Source of the DNA: Thermococcus gorgonarius
Lineage (GTDB): Archaea; Methanobacteriota_B; Thermococci; Thermococcales; Thermococcaceae
DNA: 64,000 nucleotides
Assembly: GCF_002214385.1 (NCBI RefSeq)
Contig: NZ_CP014855.1
Location: forward strand, 1,426,001-1,490,000
Reading direction: 5' to 3'
Positions 11,446 to 39,834 of the stretch are shown in pieces. Below the pieces are notes generated by a model that was not told where the DNA came from, ran no database searches, and was given only the letters and a program-made list of their open reading frames with translations. Position 1 is the stretch's first letter, and the number at the start of each line of letters is the position of its first letter. The translations under genes and the position numbers were made by a program.

Positions 11446-11462
11446 AAATCGTAACACGATTT
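11446..11462. promoter_or_regulatory. Inverted repeat beside the cooC-like promoter
   Basis: AAATCG-TAACA-CGATTT is a perfect 6-bp inverted repeat with a 5-nt spacer. It starts inside the TATA-like CTTATAAATC (11441-11450) of the CooC-like gene and covers the bases just downstream of it, so a bound protein should block TBP/TFB or polymerase. The regulator is unknown. Confidence 0.4.
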
Positions 11463-11480
11463 TGTACTTTGGTGATACCA

Positions 11481-12209
11481 ATGAAGGTTCTCGTGAGCGG
11501 TAAAGGCGGTTGCGGAAAGAGCACCATAAGCGCGATGCTTGGAAAGTATTTGGCTGAGAAGGGGTACCGCGTTCTAATCATAGACGCCGACGAGTCAAAC
11601 CCGGGCCTCTACAGGATGCTGGGCCTTCCAAAGGTCAAAACGCTCGCGGAACACCTTGGGGGCAAGACGAGGGCCAAGATACTCATGGCGGCCGAGGGCC
11701 AGGGGGAACTCGACGAAGAACTCTTCAACTGGACCCTTGATGACATTCCTGAAGAGATACTCGCCAAAAAGGGGAACCTGGCCGTTCTCACGATAGGTAA
11801 AATTGAGGAGGCCGAGGAAGGCTGTGCTTGCCCCTACGGCTTCCTGGCCAGAAAGCTCCTCGAGGGGATTAAGCTTGGGGAAAACGAGGTCATCATAGTT
11901 GACACCGAGGCAGGAATAGAGCACTTCGGCAGGGGCGTTGACAAATACGTTGACGTTGTAATCGACGTTGCAGAGCCTTCAGTTGAGTCAATAGAGCTTT
12001 CGAAAAAGATAGCCACGCTGAGCAGGAGCCTCGGCCTCACTCACGTCTTGGTTCTCAACAAGGCTCTGCCCGGGGTTGAGGACAAGCTTCCGGTTAAACC
12101 CGACGTCACAATACCCTTCGACCAGGGCTTCATACTCGACAGCCTAAACGGGAAAGAAGTCAGGCCAGTGAAACAAATAGAAGAACTCTGGGAAATAATC
12201 CCCGGATGA
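11481..12209 (+). CDS. CooC-like MinD-family nickel ATPase
   Basis: A 242-residue P-loop ATPase with the deviant Walker [10 protein letters not shown] at residues 7-15 and DADESN at 35-40. Cysteines C115 and C117 (EGCACPYG) match the Cys-X-Cys motif with which CooC dimers bind nickel for insertion into CO dehydrogenase. No CODH gene is in the window, so the target may be elsewhere or the protein may serve another nickel enzyme such as hydrogenase. The ATG follows GGTGAT at 4 nt. It is a single-gene unit between porB and acs with its own promoter. Confidence 0.75.
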
Positions 12210-15496: not shown

Positions 15497-15890
15497 TCAA
15501 CCCTCCAAAAGGCCCTTTTCGCGAAGGTAATCAACGGTAAAGCCGAGAAATTCCTCGGCGCGTCTGATATTCCCACATGCCTCCCCCCTCGGTGATATCA
15601 ACAACAAAAGAGTAATCCGCGGTCTGTCTCAGGTTAAAGGCAGTTCTCAAGTGAGTAAAAAATTTGTGAGGGACTTCACCAGTCTTAACGAACTCCTTGC
15701 CGAGGAGTGCTATCACTGTGAAATGCTTGGAAGCACTTATGCCTTTTGTGAGTAGAATTGCCTCGGCACAGTAGAACATGGTGTAGTATGCCCTCGAAAG
15801 TGCAAAACCATAGAAACCCTTTTTCAGCAAGGTTTTGGCTGCTTCAAGACTCTCCTCGGCCTTTTTTATCATGTCCTCATATCTGCTCAT
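15497..15890 (-). pseudogene. HEPN-domain protein, frameshifted in a G6 run
   Basis: The reading frame gives MSRYEDMIKKAEESLEAAKT, ALSRAYYTMFYCAEAILLTKG and a HEPN four-helix pattern, but after ...FVVDITE it runs into GGGMWEYQTRRG and stops at 15531. If one G is dropped from the G6 tract (C6 on the plus strand at 15583-15588), the frame continues as EACGNIRRAEEFLGF and TVDYLREKGLLEG, normal HEPN helix 4, and stops at 15497, right at hypE. So the gene is either frameshifted, slips at the tract, or contains a sequencing error. It overlaps the upstream nucleotidyltransferase by ATGA, as in MNT/HEPN toxin-antitoxin modules. Confidence 0.75.
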
Positions 15891-16213
15891 ACCTTTATTC
15901 CCTCCACGTGGACGGTCTGGATCAGCGGGTCGTGTTCCATTCTGGGACTCAGCGGATAGACGATGAGGGAAATAATGATGCCCTTCTCCAGGACGTACTT
16001 TTCAGTAATCTCGTTTAGTTTATCGTGTTCCTCAAGGCTCAAACGTCTCCTGGTTACTAGCAGAACGTCAACGTCGCTTCCATCCCTCGCCTCTCCCCTT
16101 GCGTATGAACCGAAGAGTATGACCTCGACTAGGTCATCGCCGAGTATCTCCTTCAGCTTTCCCTTGACCTCCCTCAGGATTTCGAGGAGTTCGTCCCTTG
16201 GAATGACAGGCAT
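15887..16213 (-). CDS. MNT-type minimal nucleotidyltransferase (antitoxin partner of HEPN)
   Basis: A 108-residue pol-beta-like nucleotidyltransferase with VILFGSYARGEARDGSDVDV, the GS...DxD metal motif, at about residues 32-51. In MNT/HEPN modules the MNT enzyme adenylylates the HEPN RNase and silences it. The ATG at 16213 follows GGAGGAG; the frame continues 11 codons upstream without a better site. A four-base ATGA overlap couples it to the HEPN gene. It lies between hypF and hypE, so the module splits the hyp genes. Confidence 0.85.
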   Translation of the reverse strand: MPVIPRDELLEILREVKGKLKEILGDDLVEVILFGSYARGEARDGSDVDVLLVTRRRLSLEEHDKLNEITEKYVLEKGIIISLIVYPLSPRMEHDPLIQTVHVEGIKV

Positions 16214-16255
16214 ATCTCCTCCTCCGGTGAAACTTCGGCGTTCCAAACTTAAACT

Positions 16256-18622: not shown

Positions 18623-18639
18623 AACCAAAAGTTGAAAAC
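18623..18639 (-). promoter_or_regulatory. SurR-type binding site upstream of hypF
   Basis: On the minus strand the bases read GTT-TTC-AAC-TTTTG-GTT, an exact match to the extended SurR motif GTTn3AACn5GTT known from Pyrococcus. It lies 8 bp upstream of the hypF TATA box (18607-18615), the position from which SurR activates hydrogenase genes when sulfur is absent. Confidence 0.7.
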
Positions 18640-20052: not shown

Positions 20053-20096
20053 CTCTCTCACCGTCCAGAAATACCAACGGTTGTTATTTAGCCTTT

Positions 20097-20354
20097 CTAA
20101 AACCTCAGGTTTTCAACCAGCGAGAACTTCATCTCGACCTTTGCTCCCTTGTGGTAGGAGCAGTGCTCCAGCGTTTCCCTGGCCTCTTCTTCGCTCACCT
20201 TCTCAAGGACTATGCCGTAGTATATTGTAACATAGTCGCCTGGCTTGACATCGCTTATAAAGTCGAGCTTAGCTTCCTTGAGCTGACCTTCGACATCGAC
20301 TATAGCCTTGTTGCCCCTGACCTCAACGACCCTGCCTGCTAACATCAGGGCCAT
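20097..20354 (-). CDS. HypC/HupF-family paralogue lacking the N-terminal cysteine
   Basis: The 85-residue protein aligns with HypC along its whole barrel (GRVVEVRGNKAIVDVEG, then DFISDVKPGDYVTIYYG and IVLEKVSEEEARETLE) but begins MALMLAGRVV. No start codon in reach gives the canonical Met-Cys. Its only cysteine, near residue 69, is in the tail (HCSYHKG). Starts possible: ATG 20354, ATG 20345 (giving MLAGR) or TTG 20363. It is first in the hypC'-hypC-hypD run. The promoter has a TATA box (AAATATAAATCC on the minus strand, about 20382-20393) and a TetR-type operator just upstream. It may hold a variant role or be a specificity partner. Confidence 0.75.
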   Translation of the reverse strand: MALMLAGRVVEVRGNKAIVDVEGQLKEAKLDFISDVKPGDYVTIYYGIVLEKVSEEEARETLEHCSYHKGAKVEMKFSLVENLRF

Positions 20355-33730: not shown

Positions 33731-34096
33731 TCAAATTTTATCCAGTACAAACTCCAGAACTTTCTTTGCCGTTTCTATAGCCTCAGCGGCAATCTCCTTA
33801 GGGACAGTATAGTACCCCGGATATCTAACTTCAACGGCAAAATCCGAGAGGTAGTGGGCGTTCATGTCGTAGAGCCTTTCAAAAGATGGGTCTACCTCTT
33901 TACACAGTTCAATCAGGTAAGCGATGTCGTGGGTTCTGGGAACGGGTTTGCCTGCCTTCACAAGAAAAGCCTTCAGGAACTTCTCAACTGCTTGCTGGGC
34001 GTGGAATGCGGCATAATCATAGATTCCGTTCTCAAGGGCCAGTTCAGCGAGCCTGAGGTCGTCCTCGCCTTTGTTTATCCATCGCTCGTAACTCAT
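33731..34096 (-). CDS. HEPN-domain protein (partner of MNT nucleotidyltransferase)
   Basis: A 121-residue four-helix protein: MSYERWINKGEDDLRLAELA, HAQQAVEKFLKAFLVKAGK, PRTHDIAYLIELCKE and the EVRYPGYY motif seen in this HEPN group. Intact, unlike the HEPN gene at 15.5 kb. It overlaps its MNT partner by ATGA. HEPN proteins are often RNases; the classic Rx4-6H motif is not clearly visible here, so activity cannot be asserted. Located between hycI and hypB, it is the second MNT/HEPN pair inside hydrogenase maturation genes. Confidence 0.88.
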   Translation of the reverse strand: MSYERWINKGEDDLRLAELALENGIYDYAAFHAQQAVEKFLKAFLVKAGKPVPRTHDIAYLIELCKEVDPSFERLYDMNAHYLSDFAVEVRYPGYYTVPKEIAAEAIETAKKVLEFVLDKI

Positions 34097-34413
34097 ACCC
34101 TGATTCCCTCCGAGAGGGCGTAGCTGTAAACGTAGCCGGGATCGTTTTTTAGTTTATCAAGTTTCTCTCTGGATATTATGAGGACGTCGATGGGCATTCC
34201 CCTCTTCGCGAGCCTCTTCCTAATCTCTCCACTGAGGTGGAGGCGCTCCCTCCAGCTAAGCTCTCTCCCGGTGACGATTAGGATATCCCAGTCGCTGTCC
34301 TTTCTAAAATCCCCCCTCGCGCGGGAGCCGAAGAGGATAATATCCTCTAACCCTATTCCCAATTCTCTGCAGACCTCGACAACTGTTTCCTTGATGAGTT
34401 CTTTTTCCTTCAT
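34093..34413 (-). CDS. MNT-type minimal nucleotidyltransferase
   Basis: A 106-residue enzyme with IILFGSRARGDFRKDSDWDI, the GS...DxD metal motif, near residues 25-44, all key residues present. It probably adenylylates the HEPN partner whose gene overlaps it. The ATG start has GGGTCGGGA nearby, a weak site. It lies downstream of hypB on the same strand with a 46-bp gap. Confidence 0.87.
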   Translation of the reverse strand: MKEKELIKETVVEVCRELGIGLEDIILFGSRARGDFRKDSDWDILIVTGRELSWRERLHLSGEIRKRLAKRGMPIDVLIISREKLDKLKNDPGYVYSYALSEGIRV

Positions 34414-34459: not shown

Positions 34460-35191
34460 TCAGAGCTTCCCCGCCACTTCCTTTATCCTCTCCGCGAACT
34501 CAGTCTTCATGAGCTCGTCAACGTTTCCTATTCTGGCGTCGAGGTCAGGGTAGAAGGGTATCCCCGCTAAGTAGGGAATTCCGAACTCCTTTGCTAAGGC
34601 CTCGACGTCCTTTTCCTCGTCCAGCTTCATGTTTTCAACGATTCCGAGAACCCTGTGCTTCTCTTCAAGGAGGAGCTGGACGAGCTTTCTGACCACGTTG
34701 AGGGCGAGCTTTGAGGGCGTCGCTACAACCAGGAATTCACCCCTCTTGAGGAAGCGGAGCACATCGAGGAGCTGGTCGCCGAGGCCGGGCGGCATGTCAA
34801 TGACGAGGTAGTCCAGCTCGTCCCAGCGGGTTATTGTGAGGAGCTCGATTAGAGCGTCGCTTATCTCCTTCCCGCGGAGCGGCGTCGGCCTGTCCTCGGT
34901 GTAGTAGGCTATCGTCATGAACTTAATTCCGTGGACTGTATGCGGAACGACGCCTTTGTCCTCCTCAGGGAACTCCTTCGGCTCAAAGCCGAGGATGACG
35001 TGGTCGCTCGCCCCGTGGAAGTCGAGGTCGAGGAGGCCTACCTTGTGGCCTTTCTCGGCCAAAGCTAAAGCCAGCGTTGTAGAAACCAGCGACTTCCCTA
35101 CTCCGCCCTTTCCGCTGACGACCGGGATAATCCTCTTAACCTTCTCAAGCCTCGCGCTTATAGCTATCTCGCGCGGGTCTATACCTATCAT
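34460..35191 (-). CDS. hypB: HypB of the Mrp/MinD type (HypA-enhancing ATPase)
   Basis: A 243-residue P-loop ATPase with VVSGKGGVGKSLVST (Walker A, about 23-37), LLDLDFHGASD and VIDMPPGLGD. It is not the SIMIBI GTPase HypB of bacteria. In Thermococcus kodakarensis the protein encoded next to hypA is this Mrp-type ATPase, which binds HypA and raises its nickel affinity; the gene order here is the same, with a 4-bp overlap (hypA stop at 35188). Part of the nickel-insertion step. Confidence 0.88.
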   Translation of the reverse strand: MIGIDPREIAISARLEKVKRIIPVVSGKGGVGKSLVSTTLALALAEKGHKVGLLDLDFHGASDHVILGFEPKEFPEEDKGVVPHTVHGIKFMTIAYYTEDRPTPLRGKEISDALIELLTITRWDELDYLVIDMPPGLGDQLLDVLRFLKRGEFLVVATPSKLALNVVRKLVQLLLEEKHRVLGIVENMKLDEEKDVEALAKEFGIPYLAGIPFYPDLDARIGNVDELMKTEFAERIKEVAGKL

Positions 35192-35607
35192 TCCTCTCCC
35201 TCCTTCTCTATCATTATTCCCGCGACGTAAACGCCCCTACCCTGGACCACCTCAAAGTCGTGGCTCCCGCACTTTGGACAGGCCAGAAAGGCGTGCACAA
35301 CCTCGGGGATGAAGTGAATGTCCTCCTTAATGCGCTCGTCGAAGGAATCTTTAACTTCCTTGAGCTTCCACTCATGGCCGCAGTTCCTGCACCTAAAAAC
35401 CGCTTCCTCTTCTTCAAAGATTATCTCCGCACCCTCTGCGACAGTGCCCGTGAAGAGTTGCTCCATCGCGAACTTCACTATGTCTTCCGCGACGTCCTGC
35501 AGTTCGCCGAGAACAACCTTGACGGCCTTGACGCGCTTCGCTCCCTCCCTCTGGGCGTAGTCGAGGACAGTTCTAACTATGGCATCCGCTAAGGCCCACT
35601 CGTGCAT
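35188..35607 (-). CDS. hypA: HypA nickel chaperone
   Basis: The 139-residue protein starts MHEWALADAIVRTVLD; the N-terminal Met-His-Glu binds nickel. A zinc finger follows (CRNCGHEW ... CPKCGSHDFE) with the long insert typical of Thermococcales HypA. It delivers Ni to the hydrogenase large subunit together with HypB. The ATG at 35607 is fixed by the MHE motif. The promoter has TATA CTTTTTAAGG (35637-35646, minus strand) and a SurR-type site immediately upstream; nikR lies divergently. Confidence 0.95.
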   Translation of the reverse strand: MHEWALADAIVRTVLDYAQREGAKRVKAVKVVLGELQDVAEDIVKFAMEQLFTGTVAEGAEIIFEEEEAVFRCRNCGHEWKLKEVKDSFDERIKEDIHFIPEVVHAFLACPKCGSHDFEVVQGRGVYVAGIMIEKEGEE

Positions 35608-35652
35608 GGTATCACCAAATTGGCATAAACGTAACACCTTAAAAAGGGTTGA

Positions 35653-35669
35653 GTTGAAAACCATACGTT
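35653..35669 (+). promoter_or_regulatory. SurR-type binding site between hypA and nikR
   Basis: GTT-GAA-AAC-CATAC-GTT matches GTTn3AACn5GTT exactly. For hypA it lies 7 bp upstream of the TATA box (activating position). For nikR it lies between the near-symmetric CCTTAAAAAGG element and the start codon, a position that could repress. One site may therefore set the two genes in opposite directions. Confidence 0.7.
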
Positions 35670-35691
35670 GAACTGATAATGGGTGAGGGTC

Positions 35692-36108
35692 ATGGGCGTT
35701 GTTCGCTTTGGCGTTTCAGTCCCTGAGGAGCTTCTTGAGAAGTTTGACAGGATCATCGAGGAGAAGGGCTACGTCAACCGGAGCGAGGCCATACGCGATA
35801 TGATGCGCGACTTCATAGTCAGGCACGAGTGGGAGCAAGGCGACGCTGAAGTGGCTGGAACTATAACGATGCTCTACAACCATGACGAGGCCGATGTTGT
35901 GAAGGAGCTCCTCGATTTGCAGCACGACTACCTTGAGGAGATAATTTCGAGCATTCACGTCCACATGGACGAACACAACTGTCTTGAGGTCGTTATCGTC
36001 AAAGGAAAGGCAAGCAGAATAAAGGAGATAGCGGACAGGCTGTTGAGCCTGAAGGGAGTAAAGCACGGCAAGCTCGTCATGACTGGAACTGGAAAGGAGC
36101 TCGTTTAG
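35692..36108 (+). CDS. nikR: NikR nickel-responsive regulator
   Basis: A 138-residue ribbon-helix-helix repressor ([31 protein letters not shown]) with a C-terminal ACT-like nickel domain. The four-ligand high-affinity site is present: H in [12 protein letters not shown] in [11 protein letters not shown] and C in NCLEVV. Nickel-loaded NikR represses nickel uptake and Ni-enzyme genes. The ATG at 35692 follows GGTGAGGG. It sits between hypA and the fmdE-ABC operon, probable targets. Confidence 0.94.
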
Positions 36109-36159: not shown

Positions 36160-36182
36160 GTTTGTAACCTCCGGTTAATAAC
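36160..36182 (+). promoter_or_regulatory. Double SurR-type site upstream of the FmdE-ABC operon
   Basis: Two complete GTTn3AAC motifs with exactly 5 bp between them: GTT-TGT-AAC, CTCCG, GTT-AAT-AAC. They end 17 bp before the TATA-like GGTTAAAAAG (36199-36208). The upstream position points to activation by SurR. Confidence 0.7.
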
Positions 36183-36238
36183 ACCAAATTCCAGAAATGG
36201 TTAAAAAGCGTGCTATTAAATCATGAAATGGTGATACT

Positions 36239-36931
36239 ATGCTCAACCTCAACCGGCTGGTGGAGGCAGGAGATGCAGAGGGCATCCTCGAATACGCGAG
36301 GGAGTTTCACGGGCACGTCTGCCCCTACCTCGCGCTCGGGATACGGGCGTCCCTCCTGGCGATGGAAGAACTCGACGTCGGAAGGCTCGACTACTCGGGA
36401 AGCGTTGACGAGAGCATTCTCGCGATAGTCGAGGTGAACAGTTGCTTCACGGACGGCGTGCAGGTCACCACAGGCTGCACCCTCGGGAACAACTCGCTGA
36501 TTTACTTCGACCTCGGAAAGACTGCCTTGACGCTCGTGAAGCGCTCGACGTGGGAAGGGGTGAGGGTCTACGCAGACGCAGAGAGGCTGGCCAAGTACTA
36601 CCCACCCGGGGCGAGGGAGCTCTTCAACAAAGTCATCAAGGAAAGAAGGGGGACTCCAGAGGAGAGGGCAAAGCTCTGGAAGCTCTGGGAGGAAGCCGCT
36701 CACAGAATGCTCCACCTGCCGAGGGAGGAGTTCAAGGTCGAGCGCGTTAAAGTGCCGCCGATAGAGCAGGCACCCATATTCGATAGCGTACGTTGTTCGA
36801 AGTGCGGTGAACTCGTCATGGAGACGAGAGCTGTCTACCTCGATGGAAAGCCCTTCTGCCTCCGCTGCGCCGGGAAGAAGTACCTCGGCGTGGTCGGCAG
36901 GGGAATAATCGAACTCGGAGGGAGGGAGTGA
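36239..36931 (+). CDS. FmdE-family protein with C-terminal zinc ribbon
   Basis: A 230-residue protein. The FmdE domain (about 18-165) begins [19 protein letters not shown] with the conserved H-x-x-x-C-P pattern and continues [22 protein letters not shown]-terminal finger has CSKCGELV...CLRCAGKK. FmdE co-purifies with tungsten formylmethanofuran dehydrogenase in methanogens but occurs widely with metal transport genes, and its role is not settled. ATG after GGTGATACT. It starts an operon with a FecBCD-type importer. Confidence 0.85.
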
Positions 36932-36932
36932 A

Positions 36933-38051
36933 ATGAAGAAATTACTCTCCCTTTTCATCATCGCGCTGGTTGTATCCCTCAGCGGCTGCATAGGGAGCAT
37001 GAACACGGGGGGCACTAGTAAGGAGACCGTGACTGTCACTGACTCCCTTGGGAGAACGGTCGAGGTGCCGGCGAAGGTGACGAAGGTCGTCGCCGCTGGG
37101 CCAGGGGCATTGAGGCTCATAGTTTACCTCAACGCCAGCGACATGGTGGCTGGTGTTGAAGACTTTGAGAAGCGCTACTCCTACGGCAGGCCCTACATCA
37201 TAGCCCATCCCGAACTCAAAGAACTGCCCAGCATAGGGCCCGGCGGGCCTGGCAAGCTGCCTGACTTCGAGGCCCTGATAAACCTCAAGCCCGACGTGAT
37301 ATTCATGACCTACGTCGATAAAAAGACCGCCGACGATATACAAGAGAAGACCAGAATTCCGGTCGTGGTTCTCAGCTACGGCGAGCTGGCGACCTTCGAC
37401 GACGAGGAACTCTTCAAGTCCCTTGAGCTCGCTGGCAGGATACTCGGAAAGGAAGAAAGGGCGAAGGAGGTCATAAACTTCATCAAATCCGTCCAGGATG
37501 ACCTTTCAAAGCGCACTGAGGGTGTGGAGCCCAAGAAGGTCTACGTCGGTGGGATCGGCTACAAAGGCGCCCACGGCATAGAGAGCACCGAAGGGGAGTA
37601 CCCACCGTTCGTGGCGGTTCGCGCGGATAACGTCGCCGACGAACTCGGCAAAGGGCACCACTCGATAGACAAGGAGAAGCTCCTCGAGTGGCAGCCGGAC
37701 TACATCTTCATCGACGAGGGTGGATTGAAGCTCCTCCTCGACGACTACAGGAAGAATCCCGACTTTTACAGCTCGCTGAAGGCAATAAAGAACGGCAACG
37801 TCTACGGCCTGCTCCCGTTCAACTTCTACACGACAAACATAGGCACTGCGCTGGCGGATGCATACTACATCGGAAAGGTCCTCTACCCAGAGCGCTTCAG
37901 CGACGTCGACCCAGCGGAGAAAGCAGACGAGATATACACCTTTCTCGTCGGGAAGCCGGTTTACAGGGAGATGGCCGAGCAGTTCGGAGGCTTTGGAAAG
38001 ATAGACCTCGAGAACGGAACCGTTAAGTACTCACTACCAACCTCACCGTGA
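36933..38051 (+). CDS. Metal-chelate ABC transporter binding lipoprotein (FecB/BtuF type)
   Basis: A 372-residue class III binding protein. A signal peptide with lipobox LSGCIG (Cys at about 20) anchors it outside. Two Rossmann-like lobes ([39 protein letters not shown]) are linked by a rigid helix. Family members bind Fe-siderophores, cobalamin, molybdate or nickel chelates. SurR-type sites, NikR and hypAB next door favour a metal for hydrogenase or the molybdoenzyme, with nickel my first guess. It starts two bases after the FmdE stop. Confidence 0.88.
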
Positions 38052-38056
38052 TGGCC

Positions 38057-39091
38057 ATGGACTACGAGAGGTACGTGGCGAGAAAGCTCTTCATTGGCGT
38101 CCTCCTTCTCCTCTTTACGATTCTGGTCAGCCTCTACTCCATCTCCCACGGCTCCTACTACATTCCCCTACGGGAGGTGCTCGACGCCCTCCTTGGAAAG
38201 GGGAGCGAGAGCGCTCACCTTGTCGTCTGGAAGGTCCGCATGCCCCGTATAGTGGCCGGCCTCCTCGTCGGCTCTGCACTTGCAGTTGCCGGTGCCGTTA
38301 TGCAGGGATTCCTGAGGAACCCCCTTGCCACGCCTTTCACGATGGGCGTTTCCCACGGGGCCATGTTCGGTGCCTCCCTCGCCATAATCCTCGGTGCCGG
38401 CTATGCCGAGAGCTCTGGAAGGATATCCCTCGACAACCCCTACGCCGTCGTGCTCTTCGCCTTCATCGGCGCAATGACTGCGGTCGGGGTGATTCTGCTC
38501 CTGGCAAGGCTTAAAGGCCTGTCCCCGGAGGCTATAATCCTCGCCGGAGTGGCCATGAGCTCCCTCTTCGTCGCCCTCACCACATTCGTCCAGTACTTTG
38601 CCGACGAGCTTCAGCTGGCGGCGATGGTCTACTGGAGCTTCGGCGACCTCGGCAGGGCCACGTGGAGAGAGGACGCCATAATGCTGGCCGTGTTCACTCC
38701 GGTCTTCGTATACTTCGTCATAAAGAGGTGGGACCTGAACGCTTCGGCCGCCGGCGATGAGGTGGCGAAGAGCGTCGGCGTTGAGGTCGAGAGGGTTCGG
38801 CTGATATCGACCTTCCTCGCGGCGCTGATAACGGCCGTCAGCGTTGCTTTTGTCGGAGTTATCGGCTTCATAGGTTTGATAGCACCGCACGCCATAAGGC
38901 TCGTCGCCGGTGGTGACTACCGTTTCCTGATACCGCTTTCAGCCCTCGCGGGTGCGTTCCTGCTCGTGACTGCTGACACCGTCGCCAGGCTGGTACTGGC
39001 CCCGATGGTGCTTCCGGTTGGGATAGTGACCTCGTTCCTTGGGGCACCGACGTTCATATACCTGCTCGTGAAGATGGAGGGAAGGAGATGA
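38057..39091 (+). CDS. Metal-chelate ABC transporter permease (FecCD/BtuC type)
   Basis: A 344-residue permease with about nine to ten helices and the family segments WKVRMPRIVAGLLVGSALAV, GAVMQGFLRNPLATPFTMGV and VAFVGVIGFIGLIAPHAIRL. Start is uncertain among GTG 38048, ATG 38051 and ATG 38057; the last has GTGAT 4 nt upstream. Overlaps the ATPase gene by 4 bp. Forms the pore for the substrate delivered by the preceding lipoprotein. Confidence 0.92.
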   Translation: MDYERYVARKLFIGVLLLLFTILVSLYSISHGSYYIPLREVLDALLGKGSESAHLVVWKVRMPRIVAGLLVGSALAVAGAVMQGFLRNPLATPFTMGVSHGAMFGASLAIILGAGYAESSGRISLDNPYAVVLFAFIGAMTAVGVILLLARLKGLSPEAIILAGVAMSSLFVALTTFVQYFADELQLAAMVYWSFGDLGRATWREDAIMLAVFTPVFVYFVIKRWDLNASAAGDEVAKSVGVEVERVRLISTFLAALITAVSVAFVGVIGFIGLIAPHAIRLVAGGDYRFLIPLSALAGAFLLVTADTVARLVLAPMVLPVGIVTSFLGAPTFIYLLVKMEGRR

Positions 39092-39834
39092 AAGCTATAA
39101 AGGCCAGAAACCTCAGCTTTTCCTACAACGGCGCCGATGTTCTGAAGGGGATAAACCTTGAGGTTGAAGAAGGCGAGTTCTTGGCGATTCTCGGCCCGAA
39201 CGGGGCCGGAAAGAGTACCCTCCTCAAGTGCATCTCAGGAATCCTGAACTGCAGGGGCGTCGAGGTTTTTGGAAAACCTATCGGAGAGTATTCTCGGAAT
39301 GAATTAGCCAGAATAATTGCTTACGTGCCCCAGAGAACCGAGCCGGGCTTTATGACGGTTTTCGACACCGTTCTCCTCGGAAGGAGACCTTACATGGGAC
39401 TGAGACCATCGAAGAAAGACCTCGAAGCTGTCAAAAGGGCACTCGAAAGAATGGGGATAGCTGGCTTTGCCCTGAAAACCACCAACAAACTGAGCGGCGG
39501 GGAACTGCAGAAGGTGGGCATAGCCCGGGCACTGGCCCAGGAGCCCAAAGTTCTGATGATGGACGAGCCGACGAACAACCTCGACATAAGGAGCCAGCTG
39601 GAGGTCATGCGCCTCGCGAGGGATTTCTCCGCAGAGGGCGGTACTGTCATCATGGTGATGCACGATGTCAACCTCGCCCTCCGCTTTGCCAGACGGTTTG
39701 TTTTCATGAAAAACGGCAGAATAGTTGCTGACGGCGGGAGGGAGATACTGAAGCCTTCCCTCTTCAGGGAGGTTTACGGTGTCAATGTGATAATAGAAGA
39801 GGTGAGGGGAATCCCCCTCGTCGTGCCCGTTTAG
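39088..39834 (+). CDS. Metal-chelate ABC transporter ATPase (FecE/BtuD type)
   Basis: The 248-residue nucleotide-binding subunit has Walker A GPNGAGKST, signature LSGGELQKV, Walker B VLMMDEPT and an H-loop histidine (VMHDVNLAL). Last gene of the FmdE-ABC operon; its stop overlaps the convergent flavodiiron gene by 4 bp. Confidence 0.93.
   Translation: MKAIKARNLSFSYNGADVLKGINLEVEEGEFLAILGPNGAGKSTLLKCISGILNCRGVEVFGKPIGEYSRNELARIIAYVPQRTEPGFMTVFDTVLLGRRPYMGLRPSKKDLEAVKRALERMGIAGFALKTTNKLSGGELQKVGIARALAQEPKVLMMDEPTNNLDIRSQLEVMRLARDFSAEGGTVIMVMHDVNLALRFARRFVFMKNGRIVADGGREILKPSLFREVYGVNVIIEEVRGIPLVVPV

Follow-up and report, generated by a model that had tools for sequence, protein, structure and literature searches.

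A putative nickel importer operon of Thermococcus gorgonarius with SurR-type and NikR-type promoter elements

The importer operon and its neighbours

The window, a stretch of 64,000 nucleotides of the Thermococcus gorgonarius genome, contains an operon in which an FmdE-family gene is followed by genes for a binding protein, a FecCD permease and an ATPase, together a full Fec-type importer set. The operon adjoins nikR, and the hypA promoter is divergent from nikR.

34460–35191, minus strand: ATPase of the Mrp/ParA type (by family assignment), 3' of hypA
35188–35607, minus strand: hypA, hydrogenase nickel metallochaperone (NF003008, 225.4 bits, cut-off 125)
35683–36108, plus strand: nikR, nickel-responsive regulator (NF003381, 226.9 bits, cut-off 105)
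36239–36931, plus strand: FmdE-family protein (PF02663) with a C-terminal zinc finger (138.7 bits, cut-off 22.9)
36933–38051, plus strand: lipoprotein substrate-binding protein (Peripla_BP_2), closest solved chain 2etv
38048–39091, plus strand: FecCD-type permease (profile match)
39088–39834, plus strand: ABC ATPase (profile match)

We take the Mrp/ParA-type ATPase at 34460–35191 to be the archaeal HypB. In many species, though not in the window, a second Mrp/ParA-type ATPase lies behind the importer operon, about 100 bp after the ATPase gene, and is about 35% identical to the HypB-like protein of the window (L072–L076, L078, L080). Two small pairs of HEPN and nucleotidyltransferase-like genes, of a probable toxin-antitoxin type, are found inside the hydrogenase region on the minus strand (33731–34413 and 15531–16246).

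Fec importers associated with FmdE are currently given an iron annotation, and no substrate is assigned to them. The NCBIfam profiles gave no specific substrate for any subunit of this importer, all scores being below cut-off. The importer had been described in a preliminary description as FecBCD-type, it is indeed of the Fec type but has a single FecCD-type permease gene. The binding protein matches 2etv, which we take to be a Thermotoga maritima binding protein, over nearly its full length (E 3e-162). The ligand of this T. maritima protein is not assigned and it is annotated as an iron protein; no literature was found for TM0189. Enterochelin-type CeuE chains are matched only at E values of about 1e-8, so that the best match among solved chains is 2etv and not NiuB/CeuE. 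In Helicobacter a Fec-type system under NikR, NiuBDE (FecDE/CeuE), is known to import nickel and also carries cobalt (PMC5140060). NiuBDE is, like the system proposed here, a Fec-type importer and a NikR target; it differs from the window operon in its distant sequence and in having neither FmdE nor SurR.

The FmdE protein of the window shares its core fold, and the HxHxC plus Cys ligands, with the family structures 2gvi, 2glz and 3d00 (PMC2954224). The HxHxC metal-site residues are conserved in the alignment. Most genes of the family adjoin metal transporters, and 2glz held Zn/Ni, bound by its HxHxC and Cys residues (PMC2954224). FmdE probably handles the metal.

SurR-type and NikR-type elements in the importer promoter

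The promoter between nikR and FmdE contains four elements, all on the plus strand.

36160–36182: double SurR-type site GTTTGTAACCTCCGGTTAATAAC, an exact match to two GTTn3AAC
36178–36184: extra NikR-like half-site ATAACAC that overlaps the proximal SurR half-site; the next half-site follows after 25 bp
36200–36208: TATA-like element GTTAAAAAG, recognised by sequence and conserved across orthologous promoters
36210–36237: NikR-type operator GTGCTAT-N14-GTGATAC, an exact pattern match between the TATA box and the start codon

The preliminary description had noted two full GTTn3AAC motifs spaced by 5 bp and placed 5' of the TATA box, and this is exactly the arrangement of GTTTGTAACCTCCGGTTAATAAC relative to GTTAAAAAG and the FmdE start codon at 36239. 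A pattern search finds the exact double pattern once in the window and twice in the 1.67-Mb genome, against one match for the reversed control pattern. The other genomic copy (1001506–1001528) is intergenic and lies 5' of a small membrane protein gene. The genome has 38 copies of the published long motif GTTn3AACn5GTT and 7 of its reversed control. Intergenic copies precede Nsr/CoA-disulfide reductase-like, glutaredoxin-like Pdo, Nfn and MbhA-like genes, recognisably the kind known to be regulated by SurR. In these intergenic copies the first base of n5 is mostly a pyrimidine and the last a purine, which is less often so in intragenic copies; the importer site, AAC-CTCCG-GTT, fits this YnnnR type.

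Orthologous importer promoters (67, from related species and hence not independent) contain the exact long motif in 45 cases, against 0.4% of shuffles, and a single GTTn3AAC in 58, against 6.7%. The full double site is found in 15 of the 67 and in no shuffle, so only a minority of the promoters have the perfect double form of a SurR-type site that, judged by its conservation, is real. The proposal of a SurR-type site in the activator position is thereby supported. The site resembles the published SurR sites of Thermococcales (GTTn3AAC and GTTn3AACn5GTT) in sequence and spacing and in its position 5' of BRE/TATA (PMC12162507, PMC10025317), it differs from them in that its proximal site overlaps a NikR-like half-site and in that the target is a metal importer. 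SurR-type motifs are also found 5' of hypF and of a hypCD-like operon (AACCAAAAGTTGAAAAC at 18623–18639, AACCTCAGGTTTTCAAC at 20095–20117), so other hydrogenase maturation genes of the window look SurR-linked as well.

The NikR-type operator lies outside the region first described and surfaced when the orthologous promoters were aligned. The alignment has a fixed GTGYTAC straight after the TATA box and a GTGATAC against the start codon, a conservation that exceeds what SurR accounts for. The second half-site overlaps the ribosome-binding site. Two of the genomes compared are presumably those of T. kodakarensis and T. gammatolerans. The T. gammatolerans group has lost the SurR core from its importer promoters and has the first half-site of the operator flipped (ATAACAC-N14-GTGATAC), a change that is tolerable because the half-site is nearly palindromic (GTnnnAC). 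Most Thermococcus promoters keep the extra half-site upstream, at a distance of N24/25 from GTGYTAC, but the T. gammatolerans group does not have it, so it is optional. Where FmdE is missing the operator directly precedes the binding-protein gene, it therefore belongs with the importer and not with FmdE.

The NikR signal that Rodionov and colleagues derived for delta-proteobacteria is GTGTTAC-N13/14-GTAACAC, with half-sites reversed in some species (PMC545781). This was applied as an a-priori consensus, allowing up to three mismatches, and was matched by 44 of the 67 Fec promoters (1.8% of shuffles) and by 23 of 31 NikM promoters (1.0% of shuffles), nearly always with N14. The importer operator of the window has four mismatches to this consensus, which is a delta-proteobacterial one. 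The T. kodakarensis importer operator, GTGTTAC-N14-GTGACAC, is identical to a site printed for Geobacter sulfurreducens (PMC545781). The Thermococcales operators thus share half-site sequence, N14 spacing and an importer and nikR context with those of delta-proteobacteria. They differ in belonging to an archaeal promoter, in a second half-site that is usually GTGATAC by the start codon, in variable half-site orientation and in the extra half-site 5' of the TATA box.

Two other leads were set aside. The sequence GTTNNTAACAC alone has further matches in the genome that do not have the matching promoter layout. A perfect palindrome TAACAC-N24-GTGTTA (875475–875510 of the genome) closely follows the TATA box of a BMP-family lipoprotein gene, but neither the lipoprotein nor the promoter layout is that of the importer operon.

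The same operator at other nickel genes

In Thermococcales the NikR-type element precedes four nickel operons, those of the FmdE-Fec importer, NikMNQO, hypA and a CooC-like ATPase, and SurR-type motifs are found upstream in all four groups. Two of the other three are present in the window.

11451–11478, plus strand: NikR-type operator of the CooC-like gene, GTAACAC-N14-GTGATAC
11481–12209, plus strand: CooC-like nickel-insertion ATPase, full-length match to CooC (3kje, residues 1–227, E 3e-16)
35609–35637, minus strand: hypA operator GTGTTAC-N15-GTGATAC, an exact match between the TATA box and the start codon, conserved in other species
35653–35669, plus strand: long SurR motif GTTGAAAACCATACGTT, upstream of the hypA TATA box

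When 94 Thermococcales genomes were searched for exact copies of GTATCAC-N14/15-RTARCAC, the pattern matched 74 times and its reverse 6 times. All but 8 of the 74 were inspected, and at least 65 precede FmdE/Fec, hypA or cooC: 37 are just 5' of FmdE and 7 are 5' of importers that have no FmdE, while the remaining inspected matches are 5' of hypA or the CooC-like ATPase gene, except for one chance match in a coding region. Apart from that one, the inspected matches are restricted to nickel genes. In the T. gorgonarius genome the only two exact matches are the importer promoter and the hypA promoter. At least 16 orthologous CooC promoters have an exact GTGYTAY-N14/15-GTGATAC, and 9 of 16 have the exact long SurR motif. 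In the NikMNQO promoters the operator follows the TATA box and a SurR-type core (AACYnnnRGTT) precedes it in 29 of 31; these importers share the two promoter elements with the Fec importer, the transporter itself is unrelated and of the ECF type.

The elements after the TATA box could instead be basal promoter and ribosome-binding-site sequence, in a nickel importer controlled by SurR alone. GGTGAT is an archaeal Shine-Dalgarno sequence and the SurR motif is strongly conserved, but GTGYTAC has no basal role and matches the published NikR half-site, its distance of 14–15 bp from GTGATAC is fixed, the pair is confined to nickel genes, and the T. gammatolerans group keeps the pair at N14 even though the SurR core is lost. 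We consider control by SurR alone improbable and prefer a promoter that would respond to both regulators.

Substrate and regulation of the importer

nikR is present in 91 of the 94 Thermococcales genomes. T. gorgonarius has no CbiM/NikM and no NicO; of the two importers it has only the FmdE-Fec system. All complete genomes but one have the Fec importer, NikM or both, and the one without either, G058, has no nikR. None of the 73 complete genomes with nikR lacks both importers, where 3.8 would be expected (P=0.0065, ignoring kinship; the count was assembled by hand and degenerate copies were scored as absent). In one genome the Fec operon is broken and NikM intact (G015), in two others NikM is broken and the Fec operon intact (G009, G084). 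In G015 (L067/L123) a deletion has fused the N-terminus of FmdE to the C-terminus of the ATPase, and the operator is still intact.

The importer also adjoins nikR or cooC in several phyla outside the Thermococcales. nikR is found within 5 kb of it in five loci of different lineages, and in a Desulfurococcaceae genome the two are divergent. In an Omnitrophota locus (L230, 1760–8464) nikR is followed in one direction by genes for a TonB-dependent receptor, FmdE, binding protein, permease and ATPase, with NikR-like sites around nikR, this operon is a candidate for a complete nickel uptake system of a Gram-negative cell. In seven loci (L219, L220, L222, L239, L210, L221, L262) a CooC homologue replaces FmdE directly 5' of the binding protein; they belong to several archaeal lineages, including Archaeoglobus, Methanothermococcus and Bathyarchaeota, and to one deltaproteobacterial lineage. 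A scan of other phyla with the Rodionov consensus gave matches near the start in some Archaeoglobales and Omnitrophota and nothing in most loci, NikR operators probably differ there. An Rfam scan of the loci of 42 bacterial relatives found no NiCo, Moco or cobalamin riboswitch.

The nickel assignment, which was the leading candidate in the preliminary description, draws its real evidence from the shared NikR-type operator and the complementarity with NikM, and nickel is far better supported than tungsten, molybdenum, iron or cobalamin. Two of the original arguments carry less: SurR control alone does not identify the metal, and the adjacency to nikR and hypAB, though present here, is a weak argument as it is found in only about a dozen species. 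Tungsten or molybdenum, then the second choice, has gained nothing, given that the bacterial relatives have no Moco riboswitch and have recurrent nikR and cooC neighbours instead. Molybdate or tungstate import for formate dehydrogenase and aldehyde oxidoreductases would suit the FmdE name and the presence of a formate dehydrogenase gene in the window, and the binding protein is distantly similar to MolA, which binds molybdate (3psa, E 2e-15). Several iron binding proteins are at least as close to it as MolA, however, and we regard molybdate or tungstate as the least probable of the substrates considered.

Cobalt or cobalamin is also very improbable. The NikM and CbiM families overlap, NiuBDE carries cobalt as well as nickel, and the complementarity with NikM could fit cobalt too, but hypA and cooC are nickel genes and the cobalamin riboswitch is absent near the bacterial relatives. 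Import of an iron chelate or siderophore agrees with the Fec-type fold and the annotation, and the authors of a T. gammatolerans study class tg0819, induced by Cd, Zn and Ni, as an iron transporter (PMC3407056). Against this, the operator is common to NikM, hypA and cooC and not to iron genes, the importer is complementary to NikM, and the genome has a second Fec locus. An iron substrate is therefore unlikely, if less so than cobalt.

We therefore propose, with a probability of roughly three in four, that the product of the operon is a nickel importer of high affinity, which SurR activates and nickel-loaded NikR represses. As the SurR site and the NikR operator are common to other nickel genes, the importer most likely serves to take up nickel while hydrogenases are being produced and the metal is scarce. 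In cells that make [NiFe]-hydrogenases without elemental sulfur, reduced SurR would bind 5' of the TATA box and activate transcription, as proposed for the mbh, frh and fhl operons (PMC10025317). NikR loaded with nickel would occupy the half-sites between the TATA box and the start codon and block initiation, so that import would be switched on when hydrogenases are under construction and nickel is scarce. SurR and NikR may compete at the optional third half-site (36178–36184), since it overlaps the SurR site. The binding protein, permease and ATPase would import nickel and FmdE may pass the metal on. In related genomes the same two-input promoter would drive NikMNQO, hypA and the CooC-like ATPase gene. 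We think it fairly probable that there is a two-input nickel regulon over four operons, with SurR reporting the hydrogen mode and NikR nickel, and that Fec importers associated with FmdE or CooC are nickel importers widespread among anaerobic archaea and bacteria.

A 2009 survey of archaeal nickel and cobalt transporter families listed only NikMNQO, NikABCDE and NiCoT, besides the predicted CbtX (PMC2667541). A nickel assignment would explain how hydrogenases are supplied in species that lack NikM, such as T. gorgonarius and T. gammatolerans. It would also supply a specific NikR operator for archaea and tie sulfur sensing to metal supply in a way that can be tested, which matters for Thermococcus strains that produce hydrogen. 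The literature searched, whose coverage was incomplete, contained no account of SurR and an archaeal NikR operator sharing a promoter, and an earlier prediction may exist.

Two published transcript studies do not fit the proposed nickel importer model simply. The T. gammatolerans gene tg0819, identified by its map position as the ATPase of the importer operon, rose 9.5-fold with 250 uM Ni and also rose with Cd and Zn (PMC3407056). This counts against the model because simple repression by nickel-loaded NikR predicts the opposite. The same three stresses also raised mbh (PMC3407056); the response may therefore reflect mainly mismetallation or a general metal stress. Nickel/cobalt transport transcripts of Palaeococcus pacificus rose on elemental sulfur (PMC6981617), which is opposite to SurR activation and so also counts against the model; our guess is that sulfide could precipitate nickel and relieve NikR repression. 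In T. onnurineus the proteins of hydrogenase maturation were lower on sulfur (PMC4463584), among them an ATPase next to hycI, perhaps HypB, and this decrease is consistent with activation by SurR.
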